Source: Candidatus Woesearchaeota archaeon (GTDB taxonomy: Archaea; Nanobdellota; Nanobdellia; Woesearchaeales; JACPBO01). From it: 43,617 bases of DNA. The notes under the pieces are model-generated. The model made no database searches. It saw nothing but the letters and a program-made list of their open reading frames with translations, and was not told where the DNA came from. A program made the position numbers and the translations under genes. The stretch's first letter is position 1. Every line of letters begins with the position of its first letter. The stretch covers positions 779-44,395 of the forward strand of contig JACPBO010000017.1 in NCBI GenBank assembly GCA_016180285.1. The letters run 5' to 3'. Shown in pieces: positions 8,284 through 42,364 of the stretch.

Positions 8284-8301
8284 ATGAATTAGGGCAATGA
8301 T
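8284..8301 (+). other. 16S rRNA processing stem, 5' arm
   Basis: ATGAATTAGGGCAATGAT pairs with the sequence at 9968-9987 downstream of 16S (ATGAATT and AGGGCAATGAT blocks, with a 2-nt bulge). This is the long stem that brackets pre-16S rRNA in archaea and is cut by the splicing endonuclease. Confidence 0.8.
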
Positions 8302-8330
8302 ATTGACAAGTTAGTCTGCGATTAACTATA

Positions 8331-9945
<1,615 letters not shown>

Positions 9946-9967
9946 TTTATTTTTATATTGTCGATGT

Positions 9968-9987
9968 ATCATTGCCCTAAAATTCAT
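9968..9987 (+). other. 16S rRNA processing stem, 3' arm
   Basis: ATCATTGCCCTAAAATTCAT is the complement of the 5' arm at 8284-8301, apart from two extra bases. It lies between the 16S 3' end and tRNA-Ala. Confidence 0.8.
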
Positions 9988-9992
9988 AATAT

Positions 9993-10119
9993 GGGCCCGT
10001 AGCTCAGACTGGTAGAGCATCGCCCTTGCATAATATTAAAGAAAGGCGGGGGCCTCGGGTTCAAAAAATCACGTTTATTATGGCCCAGCGGACCATTTTT
10101 GAAAGTCCCGACGGGTCCA
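9993..10119 (+). tRNA. tRNA-Ala (anticodon TGC) with two introns
   Basis: The acceptor stem is GGGCCCG/CGGGTCC with discriminator A. D arm GCTC/GAGC, anticodon stem TCGCC/GGCGG with anticodon TGC at 10027-10029, and T stem TCGGG/CCCGA follow. The gene is 127 nt; the mature tRNA would be 74 nt. Intron 1 (10031-10043, 13 nt) is at position 37/38, with bulges CAT and AAA. Intron 2 (10066-10105, 40 nt) is in the T loop at position 59/60: helix TTCA (10060-10063)/TGAA (10100-10103), flanked by bulges AAA (10064-10066) and AGT (10104-10106). Cutting restores the standard T loop TTCAAAT. The 16S-tRNA-Ala-23S order is typical of euryarchaeal and related operons. Confidence 0.9.
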
Positions 10120-10203: not shown

Positions 10204-10216
10204 CCATGCATAGAGT
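10204..10216 (+). other. 23S rRNA processing stem, 5' arm
   Basis: CCATGCATAGAGT is perfectly complementary to ACTCTATGCATGG at 13804-13816. The pair brackets 23S rRNA and is the expected pre-23S processing helix. Confidence 0.85.
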
Positions 10217-12166
10217 GTTCAGAAAAATGTTATTAGGTGAAGGACTCGGCTCTAACGCCGAAGAAGGATGCGACAAGCTGCATTAAGCTCTGGCTAGCTG
10301 CATGTAAGCTTTGAACCAGAGATCTCTGAATGAGACTTCTCATTAGATCCGAAAGGATCGGGAACGCAGGGAATTGAAACGTCTTAGTACCTGCAGGAAA
10401 AGAAATCAACGAGATGCTGTTAATAAGAGCGACTGAAAACAGCAAAGAGCAAACTGAATCTTTTATTGAAAGATAAAAGAGATGTGGTGTTGAAGACTGC
10501 CTTTTAGTCCTACTGTTTGACTTGAACTCTTCTGGAAAGGAGGGCGCAACAGGGTGATAGTCCCGTAAAGGTAAAACAGAGGATGTGGCAGTATCTTGAG
10601 TACTGTTTACCGGATACTAAACAGGAATTTGGGTGGCATCAACATCCAACTCTAAACACGTATAGAGTCCGATAGCGTAGAAGTACAACGATGGAAAGTT
10701 GAAAAGAACCCTTAACAGGAAGTTAAAAGAACCTGAAACCTAATAACAATAGTGGGGTGCGGCTCTTAGGAGTTGCACCATGCGTTTCGAATAACGTGCC
10801 AGGGAGTGCATTTGAGTGGCAAGGGTAATCTTAAAAAGAGAACCCGAAGCGAAAGCAATTGCCCGCAAGCAATGAGGGGCAAGGTGTGAAAGTGCCTTTA
10901 GTCACTTGAGTGCGACCCGAAGCCAGACGATCTAACCCAGGGTAAGGCGAAGCGGGGGTAAAACCTCGTGGAGGCCTGCAACTCTGCTACGAGCAAGTGC
11001 TATCCTAACCTTGGGCTAGGGGTGAAAAGCCAATCGAGTCTGGTGATAGCTGGTTCCTGCTGAAGTTGGCCGCAGTCAAGTCTCAGGTGAGACAGCTAAG
11101 ATGGTAGAGGTACGGATTTTGGATTTAGGCTTCGAAAGAAGTCGGTCCTCTGTCCAACTCCGAATATTTTAGCGTCTAAGACCTTGGGAAACGGGGATTC
11201 GGGGTAAACTTGAATTCCGAGAGGGGAACAACCCAGACTATAGTTAAGGTCCCAAAAACCAATTAAGTGTTATAGGCTGAAGAGCGTCAATAGTCTAAGA
11301 CAGCGAGGAGGTTGGCTCAGAAGCAGCCACCCTATAATAAGTGCGTAACAGCTTACTCGTCAAGACTATTGGCCTCCAAAATGGACGGGGCTAAATTGGT
11401 TACCGATACTATAGACCATCTTCGGATGTGTGGTAAGCAGGCGTTCTATGAGGGCAGAAATATTCTCGCGAGAGGATGTGGACCTCATAGAAATGAAAAT
11501 CCTGGCGTCAGTAGGATCATAGCAGTGTTAGAATCACTGCCACTGAAAGGGCAAGGGTTCCTTGACAATGCAAATCAGTCAAGGGTAAGTTAGTCCTAAC
11601 TAATCTCCCAATTGGAGTGTATTAGGAAAGGGAAAAAGGTTAATATTCCTTTACTGTTCGAGTATGTGCGGCAACGCAAGTTCAGTTTCTGAAATTTTTG
11701 GCTGGACCAACATGGTTATTTATCATGCCAATCAGAATAAATCTGGGGAGTATCGTAACGATGAGAACCAGATTAAATCTGAGATGAGTATTCCTATGGA
11801 ATATTTGGTTTAGGCCAGGAGTCCATGAAAAAGGAACTGAAAAAAATCTTGAATAACTATACCCAGAACCAGCACAGGTGCCCCTAGGTGAGTAGCCTAA
11901 AGTGTGAAGGATTAATTCAATTGAGGGAACTCGGCAAATTAGCCCCGTAGCTTAGGTAGAAGGGGTCCCTGCGGTCGTGCTGCATAAGTGCGATTGCAAG
12001 GTGCAATAACAAGGAGGGTCCGACTGTTTAACAAAAACTTAGCTTTCCGCTAGCCCGCAAGGGTGCGTATGGAAGGTGACGTCTGCCCAATGCTTGTATC
12101 TCAAACCTCTATTCAAGGAGGCTAAGGACAGGTCAATGGCGGGAGTAACTATAACTCTCTTAAGGT

Positions 12167-12856
12167 GATTTTGTCGCCTTAATAAAATCTGGCTATTTGC
12201 TGGAAAATCCGAGAATCTCACACTACCAGTGGACAAGTGTGCGCATAAAGCTTATAAAGCTGAATGCGCAAGTGTTATTGGTGAAAATGTGATGAGTGCG
12301 GACAATCAGCAGGAAAGACTAGATGATAAGTGGATCACAGGGTTTGTCGATGGAGAAGGTTGTTTTTATGTAGCCATAAACAAGCTACCAAAAATGACTC
12401 TAGGTTGGCAAGTTCTTCCCGAATTCAGAGTTGTTCAGCATCAGCGTGATGAACAAGTGCTTCATAAGTTGAAATTATTTTTTGGCTTTGGAAGCGTTGA
12501 AAGAAATCACGATGAGCGAAAAGAGTTCAGAGTAAGGGGAATCGAAAACTTGAATAAATTGATAAAATTTTTCAAGGAAAATCCTCTTGAAACTTCGAAG
12601 AAAAGAAGCTTTGAAATCTTTGCTCAAATCATCGAATTGATGAACAGCAAACAGCATCTGACAAAGGAAGGATTACATGAAATTGCTAACTTGGCTTCTC
12701 AGATGAACCGACAAGTCAAAAGAAATCTAGAATCCTCAGAGACTATATGCCGGAACTCCAAACAGGAGTAAGATATAGTCCGACCCTAACAGCGATGTTA
12801 GGAGCTGTGCAGAAATGCGCAGCCGCCTCTAAGAGGCCATTAAAGTAACAGATGTG
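12167..12856 (+). mobile_element. Group I intron in 23S rRNA (L1931 site)
   Basis: The exon ...TTAAGGT pairs with the internal guide GCCTTAA (12176-12182), giving the T-G wobble at the 5' splice site. The intron ends in G (12856), and exon 2 resumes AGCGAAAT. Core elements are visible: P3 TCTGGC (12189-12194)/GCCGGA; the R-type TCAGAGACTA (about 12736-12745) and S-type AAGATATAGTCC (about 12770-12781) forming P7; P8 ACTCC/GGAGT; and a P9 hairpin CCTAAC/GTTAGG. A GCGCAT/ATGCGC stem precedes the endonuclease ORF, so the ORF lies in the P6 region. Insertion follows E. coli U1931 inside the I-PpoI-like CTCTCTTAAGGTAGC region. This is a self-splicing class, not a bulge-helix-bulge intron. Confidence 0.93.
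12292..12771 (+). CDS. LAGLIDADG homing endonuclease inside the 23S intron
   Basis: A 159-residue single-motif LAGLIDADG protein similar in size to I-CreI, expected to act as a homodimer and cut intronless 23S genes. The motif is WITGFVDGEGCFYV, residues 14-27 from this start; Glu22 takes the place of the catalytic acid of I-CreI. FRVVQHQRDEQVLHKLK and FFGFGSVERN correspond to the DNA-binding sheet. ATG at 12292 is preferred (GGTGA upstream); the frame stays open to a GTG at 12229. The last dozen codons overlap the ribozyme's P7, P3 and P8 strands, so the C-terminal sequence is constrained by RNA folding. Confidence 0.9.
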   Translation: MSADNQQERLDDKWITGFVDGEGCFYVAINKLPKMTLGWQVLPEFRVVQHQRDEQVLHKLKLFFGFGSVERNHDERKEFRVRGIENLNKLIKFFKENPLETSKKRSFEIFAQIIELMNSKQHLTKEGLHEIANLASQMNRQVKRNLESSETICRNSKQE

Positions 12857-13803
12857 AGCGAAATACCTTGTCGTTTGAATGACGACGCGCATGAATGACG
12901 TAACGAGATCCTCACTGTCCCCAATTGAAGTCCTCTGAACACTCTTTTCTGGTGTAAAAGCCAGAGATTTCCAGTGGGAAGTGAAGACCCCGTGAAACTT
13001 TACTGTAGTCTGTTGTTGCAACGTGAGTTTTGGTGTATAGCGTAAGTGGGAGTCGTTTGAAGCTTAATCGTTAGGTTAAGTGTAGACGCCAATGTAACAC
13101 CACTCATTAAGACTTACGTCGCTAATTAACGAAAGTTAAAACAGCGATAGATAGACAGTTTGGCTGGGGTGGCACTCTGCTGAAAAAGTATCAGCAGAGC
13201 CCAATGGCTGACTCATTCGGGTCAGAAATCCGAAGTTGAGTGCGAGGGCAAAAGTCAGCCTGATTGGATTTCCACTAAGAAAGAATCCAAACATGAAAGT
13301 GTGGCCTAGCGAACCTCTATGTCCTCCTTGCTGGGGGCTAGAGATGACCGAAAAGTTACTCCGGGGATAACAGAGTCGTCGCGCCTGAGAGTTCACATCG
13401 ACGGCGCGGCTTGCTACATCGATGTCGGCTCTACCTATCCTGGCCGTGCAGAAGCGGCCAAGGGTGCGGGTGTTCACCGATTAAAAGGGATCGTGAGCTG
13501 GGTTCAGAACGTTGTGAGACAGTTTGTTTAATATCTACTGGAAATGCTTTGTGTCTGAAAGGAAGAATGCTCTAGTACGAGAGGAACGGGCATTCGAAGC
13601 CTCTGGTGAATCAGTTGTCTGCAAAGGCACGCTGAACAGCTACGCTTTTAAGGGATAAGAGCTGAAAGCATCTAAGCTCGAAGCCCTCCTTGAAAATAGA
13701 CACAATGAACACAAGCAAAAGACTTGTTCAATGGAATCGGTGTGTACGTGCAAAGCTTCGGCAATGCATTCAGCATGCGATTTCCAACAGTTCGACTTTG
13801 AAT

Positions 13804-13816
13804 ACTCTATGCATGG
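13804..13816 (+). other. 23S rRNA processing stem, 3' arm
   Basis: ACTCTATGCATGG is the perfect 13-base complement of the 5' arm at 10204-10216. A T-rich stretch follows at about 13820-13835 and could contribute to termination of the rRNA transcript. Confidence 0.85.
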
Positions 13817-39171: not shown

Positions 39172-42100
39172 TTATTCAACTAAAATCGCAGCTTTTCCAG
39201 GCGCTGCATTGTTCGCCTTCTGCTCTTTGGAATCCTCTGCATTTACAACTTCAATCCCGCAGTTAAATTCTTTTTCAATCGCTTCCTTGTTTTTCTCCAA
39301 AGCTTCAAACTCTGTTTTCTGATCCAATACAATAACAGGCATCTTTCCCATATCCTTCACAACAGCAGGGATTATTTTTGAAACTTCGGCTCCATGCTGT
39401 TTAAAATCTTTCATCAAAACACTCATCAACTCCCTTACATCATGCGTTTTCTTAAGTTCTTTTTTCAGCGTTTTAAAGAAATCATACTTCCATTTATGGC
39501 TTATGATTAATGTTATCCTGCCAGGTTTTTCTTTTTTAATAAGCGTTAAAACATTTCTTGCATCTGAAATGGTATTCCTGACAAAGTTCTCAGAAGCATC
39601 TAAGCTTTCATCAATGTATTTCTCGTTATAAGAAGGCCATTCTGCCAAAGAAACAAACCCTTTATTTCCCATCATCTCCCATAATTCTTCTGCCAGATGC
39701 GGCGCAAAAGGCTGCAGCATCTTGATAAAAGCTTCAGCAGCTTCTTTCGATGCGCTGTACTTTGCAAGGTGATCGAAATAGTCTGAAAGCCGTATTATTG
39801 CTGTATTGAATTCAAGGGCATCCATGTGATCTGTAACATCCCTTATTGTTTTGTGCATCTTATTCAATAATTCTTTTGAGCTTTCCTTTGAAAGCTTTGC
39901 TTCTGAGACAAAAGAATAGATTTTATTCACAAGCCTATACATCCCCTCTATTCCCTGGTCGCTCCATTCAACTTCCTTGTCCGGAGAAGCGACAAACAAT
40001 AAAAACAATCGCGCCGTGTCTATTCCGTATTTCTGGGCAATCTCTTCCTGCGTTACAACATTGCCCCTGCTTTTGCTCATCACAAAGCCGCCTTTGTGCA
40101 GCATCCCCTGGTTAAACAAGCGGGGAGCAGGCTCGTCAAAATTTACCAATCCCAAATCGCGCAAAAACTTTGTAAAGAACCTGAAATAAATCAAATGCAT
40201 GCATGCATGCTCCTTTCCCCCGATATACAAATCAATCGGCATCCAATAGGCCGCTTTCTTTTTATCAAAGATCTCTTTTTCATTTTTTGGATCGCAATAT
40301 CTCAGGAAATACCAGCTTGAATCAATAAAAGTGTCCATCGTATCCGTTTCTCTTCTTGCCTTTCCCTTGCATCCGGGGCATTTTGTGTTTACAAATTCGC
40401 TGACATTTTCCAGCGGATTTCCTTTTCCGCCAAACTCGACATTTTCAGGAAGCCTGACTGGCAGCTCTTTTTCCGGAACAGGCACAATGCCGCACTTCTC
40501 GCAGTAAACAATTGGGATCGGGCAGCCCCAGAATCTCTGCCTTGAAATCAGCCAGTCTCTTAACTTGTACTGCACAGTTTTCTTTCCAATGCCCTCTTTC
40601 TCTAAAAATTTGTTTATCTCAGGAATCGCTTCTTTATTGTTCATATCATTGAATCTGCCTGAATTGACAAGATAGCCCTCTCCAATAAAAGCCCTCGACA
40701 TCTTATCTGCATTCAGCTCATACTCTCTTGGGTTAATTACAGCCTTTATTGGAATCTTGAATTTCTTTGCAAAATCAAAATCTCTTTGATCATGAGCCGG
40801 AACAGCCATTATTGCGCCAGTTCCGTAATCAAGCAGAACAAAATTTGCAATGTAAATCGGGATCTCGGCATTTGTCAATGGGTTTATTGCATACCTTCCG
40901 ATAAACATTCCTTCTTTTTCTTTGTCTTCAGCTGTTCTTGTAAATCTGTCTTCTATCACAACCTTTTCTATGAACTTCTTGACATCTGCCTCATACCTTG
41001 TTCCCTTTACAAGCTCCAGAACTTTTGGATGCTCAGGAGCATAAACCATGAATGTAACTCCGTATAATGTATCCGCCCTTGTTGTAAATATTGGGATTTT
41101 TTCTAAGCATCGATTAAGAACGTCTGGTTCTTTCTCTCCGCATATATGACTTGCCTCAGCTTTAAAATCAAAAATAACGCCGCCAATAACTTTTTTTATT
41201 TTATCTGCTCTCTCTGGAGGCAAAGCATAATCATTTTTAGCCCTAAGTATTGCAATATCTTTTACATTTTTTTTGATTTTGTCAAAATCAAACTTCCAGT
41301 TGAAAGTTTCATCGAAAGGCCTTTTCTTATCTTTAAATTTTGGCTCGATAAATCCGGCAGCCAAAATTAGCTTTTTAATAGGTTTTTCTAATCTTTCAAG
41401 AATCTTTAATGCTACTGCAGCTCCCAAGCTGTGCCCCAATAAAACAGTATTTTCATCAAATCTCTCATTTTTTAAAACATATTCAGCTTGTTTTATAACA
41501 TCAGGATTATCAGTATCAGGCAAATTAGGAACATTAACTTTATATCCTTTGCCTTCAAGTTCTTTTCTAAGCCATGGGAAAAAAAGTGCATCAGGCGAAC
41601 CAGCATATCCGTGAATCAAAACATAATTATTATCTGTCTTAATTTCAAAATCAACCAATGTTCCTTCGCTTCTTCCGATCCAGTTGCGCTGCATTGTCTT
41701 TACATCTTCACTCCATTGCAGCCCATCAATATCCTTAAGCAATTCTTCAGCGTAATCTGTTATCTTGAAGAACCACTGCTCCAGATCCCTTACTTCAACA
41801 TTTGTATCCTCATGCCTCCAGCATTTGCCGTCATGCACCTGCTCATTTGCCAGAACAGTGGCGCATTTAGGGCACCAGTTGACAACGGATTTTTTCCTGA
41901 AAGCTAATCCTTTTTCAAACATTTTCAGGAAGATCCACTGGTCCCATTTGTAATACTCAGGAGTATGAGATGCAATAACCCTGCTCCAATCATAGCTCAA
42001 TCCAAGCTCTTTCTGCTGCCTTATGAAATTTTTAATAGCATCTTCGGTGAATATCTTGGGATGCGACTTGGCTTTTATTGCAGCGTTTTCAGCCGGCAAT

Positions 42101-42342
42101 CCAAAGCTGTCATAGCCCATTGGATAAAGCACATTAAATCCCTGCATTCTTTTAAAGCGGGCAAAGCAGTCTCCTATTGTATAATTGCGGACATGCCCCA
42201 TATGGAGCCCTGACCCAGATGGATATGGATACATCTCAAGGCAGTAGAATTTCTTCTTTTTTGGATCCTCTTTAACTTCAAATATCTTGGCATCTTCCCA
42301 CTTCTTCTGCCATTTCCTGCTTATCTTATTGAAATCTGCCAT
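39172..42342 (-). CDS. leuS: Leucyl-tRNA synthetase with an inserted alpha/beta hydrolase domain
   Basis: A 1,056-residue bacterial-type LeuRS (numbering from ATG 42342). HMGH is at 47-50 after YPYPSGSGL, a zinc-binding block NWCPKCATV near 155-163, RDWLISRQRFWG near 595-606, DTMDTFIDSSWYFLRY, and VMSKSRGN near 754-761. The CP1 editing domain keeps FTTRADTLYG (Thr421-type positions) and the conserved Asp518 in AHDQRDFDF. Between LVDFEIK (ends about 235) and IPIFTTR (about 416) lies a foreign insert of about 180 residues: VLIHGYAGSPDALFFPWL, VLLGHSLGAAVALKI with nucleophile Ser305, ILRAKNDYAL with Asp371, and EASHICG with His399, an RBBP9/YdeN-like hydrolase. TTTATAAA (about 42365-42373) is 26 bp before the ATG, giving a leaderless message. 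Archaea normally carry the archaeal type, so this gene was likely acquired. Confidence 0.93.
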   Translation of the reverse strand: MADFNKISRKWQKKWEDAKIFEVKEDPKKKKFYCLEMYPYPSGSGLHMGHVRNYTIGDCFARFKRMQGFNVLYPMGYDSFGLPAENAAIKAKSHPKIFTEDAIKNFIRQQKELGLSYDWSRVIASHTPEYYKWDQWIFLKMFEKGLAFRKKSVVNWCPKCATVLANEQVHDGKCWRHEDTNVEVRDLEQWFFKITDYAEELLKDIDGLQWSEDVKTMQRNWIGRSEGTLVDFEIKTDNNYVLIHGYAGSPDALFFPWLRKELEGKGYKVNVPNLPDTDNPDVIKQAEYVLKNERFDENTVLLGHSLGAAVALKILERLEKPIKKLILAAGFIEPKFKDKKRPFDETFNWKFDFDKIKKNVKDIAILRAKNDYALPPERADKIKKVIGGVIFDFKAEASHICGEKEPDVLNRCLEKIPIFTTRADTLYGVTFMVYAPEHPKVLELVKGTRYEADVKKFIEKVVIEDRFTRTAEDKEKEGMFIGRYAINPLTNAEIPIYIANFVLLDYGTGAIMAVPAHDQRDFDFAKKFKIPIKAVINPREYELNADKMSRAFIGEGYLVNSGRFNDMNNKEAIPEINKFLEKEGIGKKTVQYKLRDWLISRQRFWGCPIPIVYCEKCGIVPVPEKELPVRLPENVEFGGKGNPLENVSEFVNTKCPGCKGKARRETDTMDTFIDSSWYFLRYCDPKNEKEIFDKKKAAYWMPIDLYIGGKEHACMHLIYFRFFTKFLRDLGLVNFDEPAPRLFNQGMLHKGGFVMSKSRGNVVTQEEIAQKYGIDTARLFLLFVASPDKEVEWSDQGIEGMYRLVNKIYSFVSEAKLSKESSKELLNKMHKTIRDVTDHMDALEFNTAIIRLSDYFDHLAKYSASKEAAEAFIKMLQPFAPHLAEELWEMMGNKGFVSLAEWPSYNEKYIDESLDASENFVRNTISDARNVLTLIKKEKPGRITLIISHKWKYDFFKTLKKELKKTHDVRELMSVLMKDFKQHGAEVSKIIPAVVKDMGKMPVIVLDQKTEFEALEKNKEAIEKEFNCGIEVVNAEDSKEQKANNAAPGKAAILVE
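41098..41640 (-). other. Alpha/beta hydrolase domain inserted in LeuRS
   Basis: The insert within leuS at the start of the CP1 editing domain. It carries an oxyanion-type HGYAGS near its start, the GHSLG nucleophile elbow, and Asp and His triad candidates in the order Ser-Asp-His with normal spacing. It looks complete and not decayed. Neighbouring LeuRS sequence reads through without it. Confidence 0.88.
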
Positions 42343-42364
42343 TTTGATTACAGTTTGCAACTTG

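Follow-up and report, generated by a model that had tools for sequence, protein, structure and literature searches.

A tRNA-Ala(UGC) gene with anticodon-loop and T-loop introns in an archaeal rRNA operon, and the spread of the T-loop 59/60 intron among its relatives

Non-canonical archaeal tRNA introns have been described in Crenarchaeota, including Thermoproteales, and in Nanoarchaeota; position 59/60 is among the intron positions listed, and the 59/60 position, (here predicted) BHB-type splice sites and two introns per gene are features that the gene reported here shares (PMC4090602). Permuted tRNA genes, namely Thermofilum pendens tRNA-iMet and tRNA-Tyr and Cyanidioschyzon merolae tRNA-Ala(UGC), have their junction at the same 59/60 site of the T-loop, and the C. 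merolae gene even represents the same isoacceptor (PMC3218864). The closest DPANN parallels are Nanoarchaeum equitans and ARMAN-1/2, which likewise combine several introns per tRNA gene with relaxed BHB motifs, and which possess a broad-specificity (alpha-beta)2 or epsilon2 EndA (PMC4033280). According to reviews, non-canonical introns go with (alpha-beta)2 or loop-bearing EndA, whereas the euryarchaeal alpha4 and alpha2 enzymes are restricted to canonical BHBs (PMC4090602, PMC4033280, PMC12397907), and loop-less homotetrameric EndA has been reported to require strict BHBs (PMC4033280). A literature search, which left most subscription journals outside its reach, turned up no description of T-loop introns for Woesearchaeota or other DPANN archaea.

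The gene examined here, a tRNA-Ala(UGC) gene with two introns, lies at positions 9993-10119 (plus strand) of the window, the whole 43,617-nt stretch of DNA analysed, where it occupies the spacer between the SSU and LSU genes of an archaeal rRNA operon. Because 59/60 is already a listed archaeal position, its T-loop intron is of a known kind. Unlike the non-canonical introns of PMC4090602, however, it occurs in a tRNA-Ala gene of the rRNA spacer in what is very probably Woesearchaeales, recurs across families of that order, and is accompanied by a single EndA gene in each genome checked, with no partner subunit found there. In contrast to the permuted tRNA genes of PMC3218864, the exons stand in normal order and the intron is in cis. 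The features of the operon are as follows.

8289..8302, plus strand: 5' arm of the SSU processing stem, TTAGGGCAATGATA, pairing with 9967-9980
8331..9944, plus strand: SSU rRNA gene, upstream of the tRNA gene in the same operon
9103..9208, plus strand: SSU rRNA intron in the 790 loop, 106 nt, BHB-type
9967..9980, plus strand: 3' arm of the SSU processing stem, a 14-nt perfect inverted repeat with 8289-8302
9993..10030, plus strand: tRNA-Ala exon 1, positions 1-37, with the same sequence in the sister species (G001)
10031..10043, plus strand: anticodon-loop intron at 37/38, 13 nt, TAATATTAAAGAA; intron-less relatives read CGCCCTTGCAAGGCGG
10044..10065, plus strand: tRNA-Ala exon 2, positions 38-59
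10066..10105, plus strand: T-loop intron at 59/60, 40 nt; site filled or empty in relatives
10106..10119, plus strand: tRNA-Ala exon 3, positions 60-73, CCA not encoded
10204..10212, plus strand: 5' arm of the LSU processing stem, CCATGCATA, pairing with 13808-13816
10213..13807, plus strand: LSU rRNA gene of this operon, downstream of the tRNA gene
13808..13816, plus strand: 3' arm of the LSU processing stem, TATGCATGG

The position of the tRNA-Ala gene between the SSU and LSU processing stems makes it very probably a part of the pre-rRNA transcript. The intron in the 790 loop of the SSU rRNA forms a near-textbook BHB (central helix TTAG/CTAA, bulges ATA/CTA, inner helix CGAG/CTCG), its excision restores GGATTAGATACCCGAGTAGTC / GATTAGATACCCGAGTAGTC, and it is probably another EndA substrate within the same transcript. 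The LSU rRNA gene also contains an insertion of ~690 nt (window about 12167-12856) with a LAGLIDADG open reading frame at 12229-12771 (PF00961, E=6e-25); the insertion's match to the group I model is below threshold (RF00028, 30.1 bits), and this archaeal LSU gene thus probably carries a homing intron of group I.

The host genome comprises 1.33 Mb on 51 contigs with a completeness of 96%. The best full-length SSU matches among the named sequences fetched showed ~76-80% identity and were mostly Woesearchaeota and Nanoarchaeota metagenome-assembled genomes. The order to which the genome belongs comprises dozens of families, which fits Woesearchaeales (DPANN), and this is very probably the host lineage.

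Removal of both introns yields a standard 74-nt tRNA-Ala whose T-loop is exactly TTCAAAT. A first, sequence-only reading had proposed a tRNA-Ala with an anticodon-loop and a T-loop intron, the latter a 40-nt insertion at 59/60; the sequence and coordinates agreed with this proposal, the double-spliced form was called as tRNA-Ala(tgc), and the joined sequence was that of uninterrupted relatives. The same reading had suggested that standard finders may miss the gene, which holds for ARAGORN and the Rfam tRNA model. ARAGORN called no tRNA on the unspliced gene and a wrong one, Ser(tga), after removal of the T-loop intron alone; only the 74-nt double-spliced form was recognised as tRNA-Ala(tgc). 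The Rfam tRNA model missed the gene whether run on the window or on the genome. tRNAscan-SE 2.0 was built to detect such introns (PMC8450103).

The failure of ARAGORN on the gene as it stands could suggest a pseudogene, that is, a tRNA-Ala copy broken by a random insertion and out of use. Such a copy should show relaxed constraint or an intact replacement, and neither was seen. A second tRNA-Ala(UGC) gene, which the sequence-only reading had named as a possible sign of a pseudogene, was sought in the 96%-complete assembly and not found. Comparison with the sister species showed no change in the 74 exon positions and an identical 13-nt intron, while the upstream spacer differed at 9 of 53 positions; the T-loop intron differed at 3 of 40, all of them unpaired in the fold. 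Given, in addition, the exact restoration of TTCAAAT and the many families filled at the same site with a co-varying motif, as described below, we attach almost no probability to a pseudogene.

To describe the site in relatives, rRNA spacers were fetched by SSU similarity without consulting the T-loop, and 23 spacer tRNA-Ala genes were resolved. An insertion at exactly 59/60 was present in 16/23 genes, which include the window and the sister species, and 7/23 were uninterrupted. All 16 insertions ended in GAA or GGA followed by two variable bases and then T60, an ending that the extraction did not demand; the motif is beyond chance because all of these blindly chosen insertions share both site and ending. 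In an order-wide pattern scan of 353 genomes, 38 matched the interrupted gene and 39 the uninterrupted gene, a single genome being counted on both sides; the remaining genomes had other sequence forms or lacked the locus in the assembly. Of the interrupted genes that were fetched, 34/35 lay downstream of an SSU end. Within a single genus (g132), G205 carried a 20-nt T-loop intron and G204 was empty at the site, with the rest of the two tRNA genes, other introns included, closely alike; together with the seven empty spacer genes, this pair provides both states of the site among near relatives. By these counts, the T-loop 59/60 intron is common and patchily spread in the order. The sequence-only reading had called it notable in this lineage: the intron is present as claimed, but it is not rare, since T-loop introns are carried widely (16/23 spacer genes; 38/353 genomes).

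Several further observations were made during this comparison. Extra D-loop introns occurred in the spacer tRNA-Ala genes of some relatives (L169, L146, L161, L158, L166 and L206-L208), giving up to three introns per gene. Two assemblies each contained two differing spacer tRNA-Ala genes (L140 and L175 in G122; L183 and L184 in G211), and in the G122 pair one gene had a T-loop intron and the other did not; such pairs reflect either two rRNA operons or contamination. Multi-intron tRNAs with one intron in the T-loop were encountered in Nanoarchaeota, Aenigmatarchaeota and Nanohalarchaeota (L072, L079, L104, L110, L119, L123 and similar), and these are apparently tRNA-Lys, as judged by reading. 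T-loop introns may thus reach beyond the order. A contig labelled Thermoprotei archaeon B15_G2 (L091) contained a tRNA whose T-loop is interrupted at 59/60, the sole non-DPANN case among the archaeal pattern matches. One bacterial pattern match (L071) was taken as chance.

The same comparison bears on whether the 40 nt might instead be retained in the mature tRNA as a longer T-arm. The insert does fold as a stem that extends the T-arm. Nevertheless, across relatives its sequence varied freely and its length ranged from 15 to about 105 nt while the flanking bases stayed fixed, and the joined sequence was exactly that of uninterrupted relatives. A normal T-loop is, moreover, required for the contact between the D-loop and the T-loop. 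Retention is accordingly rated as extremely improbable, and both this reading and that of a pseudogene are rejected because of the conservation and the comparative evidence. In a third alternative, the splice sites are displaced by 1-3 nt, for instance to 58/59, giving a TTCAAGT loop. Repeated A and G residues at the intron edges make the cut ambiguous from sequence alone, and TTCAAGT would also be acceptable as a T-loop. However, uninterrupted relatives had TTCRAAT in 39/41 matches, only a cut at 59/60 yields TTCRAAT from all introns, and this cut agrees with the 2+1 rule by which 3-nt bulges are cut; a displaced site therefore appears very unlikely.

We are highly confident that this is a working tRNA-Ala(UGC) gene, as far as found the only one in the genome, and that both introns are spliced out to give the standard 74-nt tRNA-Ala. 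In the proposed route, the tRNA would be transcribed inside the SSU-tRNA-LSU pre-rRNA; the T-stem, a 3-nt bulge and a short helix between T-loop positions 54-57 and the intron's 3' end would together mark its T-loop splice sites; EndA would cut after A59 and before T60, and likewise at 37/38; and RtcB would ligate the exons.

The predicted central helix at the T-loop site pairs T54-R57 with YGAA at the 3' end of the intron, and all four pairs are possible in the window copy. The BHB drawn in the sequence-only reading (TTCA/TGAA with bulges AAA and AGT) holds up in part: it can form, and its 3' AGT bulge is open in >95% of the ensemble. Its 5' bulge, however, is open in <10%, as the minimum-energy fold zips the AAA onto UUU and the strict form lies ~3.5 kcal/mol higher; for these reasons the BHB of the window copy is best described as possible but relaxed. 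R57 and the intron base predicted to face it, which make up pair four of the central helix, were compared in 36 distinct introns: they formed A-T in 21, G-C in 5 and G-T in 4, were mismatched in 6 and were never A-C. Pairing in 30/36 exceeded the permutation mean of 26.4 (P about 0.001) and C was enriched opposite G57 (Fisher P 0.0007), P values to be read in the light of the shared ancestry of these phylogenetically non-independent rows. These counts indicate that R57 and the facing intron base co-vary. In the set found by pattern, this pair is the sole real test because the search pattern itself required GAA. Inner stems without gaps and 3 bp or longer were present in 13/36 introns, against 2.2 expected in shuffles. 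In most predicted folds of isolated RNA from relatives, the 4-bp central helix was weak and the splice-site bases remained open; with the helix so often unstable alone, the enzyme would need to hold it.

Both enzymes that archaeal splicing needs are encoded. EndA (PF01974) had one match in the genome, a single 209-aa open frame, and RtcB (PF01139) also had one; 12 relatives had one PF01974 match each. A second EndA subunit was sought in the genome at E<=10 and none further was found, a search that a very divergent subunit might escape. With one gene found, EndA probably works as a homotetramer. The established archaeal pathway, EndA excision at the BHB followed by RtcB ligation, is the most likely route for these introns. 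The protein aligned almost without gaps to Methanocaldococcus jannaschii EndA (1a79; query 23-194 against chain 2-171) and gave its highest score against the catalytic subunit of N. equitans. In contrast to the enzymes of N. equitans and ARMAN-1/2, it is a single alpha-type EndA without an extra loop of 11-18 residues relative to M. jannaschii: no CSL or ASL specificity loop of that size was present in the alignment, the Tyr-Lys of the ARMAN loop had no aligned counterpart, and neither a second structural subunit nor a fused three-unit enzyme, the hallmarks of broad-specificity EndA, was found in the genome. This account only partly explains how enzyme and substrate fit each other, given the strict BHBs that a loop-less homotetramer reportedly requires (PMC4033280). 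A single loop-less EndA would here serve many non-canonical introns, and the lineage does not neatly fit the EndA loop/intron rule. A possible but tentative extension, to which we give somewhat less than even weight, is that short T-loop introns were gained repeatedly at 59/60 across the order and are processed by a single-subunit EndA without the supposedly necessary specificity loop.

The T-loop intron of the spacer gene has candidate counterparts elsewhere in the genome. They lie in at least six other tRNA candidates: Ala(GGC), Ala(CGC), Cys(GCA), a tRNA of Leu type, one resembling tRNA-Ser and another with multiple introns. The tRNA-Ala(GGC) and tRNA-Ala(CGC) genes stand in tandem (L209, G000:C35:4300-4800) with T-loop introns of 29 and 105 nt, so that all three alanine isoacceptors appear to need T-loop splicing. 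The class II Leu-type tRNA (L214/L215; G000:C4:34358-34478 and G001:C6:18403-18523), kept in both species together with its T-loop intron, has the anticodon loop CTTATGA (UAU, nominally Ile AUA), and unusual AUA decoding is possible. Just upstream (L216/L217) lies a tRNA-Ser-like 5' half that has a TATA-like box and a 17-nt stretch also present in the Leu-type tRNA's variable arm; a pattern search for its 3' half gave no match in its own genome and five candidate matches in the sister species, and it may be either a split-tRNA half or a decayed copy. In the window, positions 39172-42360 (minus strand) encode a LeuRS of 1062 aa in which a serine/alpha-beta hydrolase domain (PF06821, aa 246-406) is inserted ahead of the editing domain.

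Taken together, T-loop introns are documented here as a common, patchy trait of a large DPANN order, and they explain why simple tRNA finders report absent alanine tRNAs in such genomes. Natural pairs of filled and empty sites are available for the study of tRNA intron gain and loss. If the order-wide gains at 59/60 and their processing by a loop-less EndA were true, they would contradict the current model of loop/intron co-evolution, and how a loop-less EndA copes with non-canonical substrates is a puzzle that can be tested.
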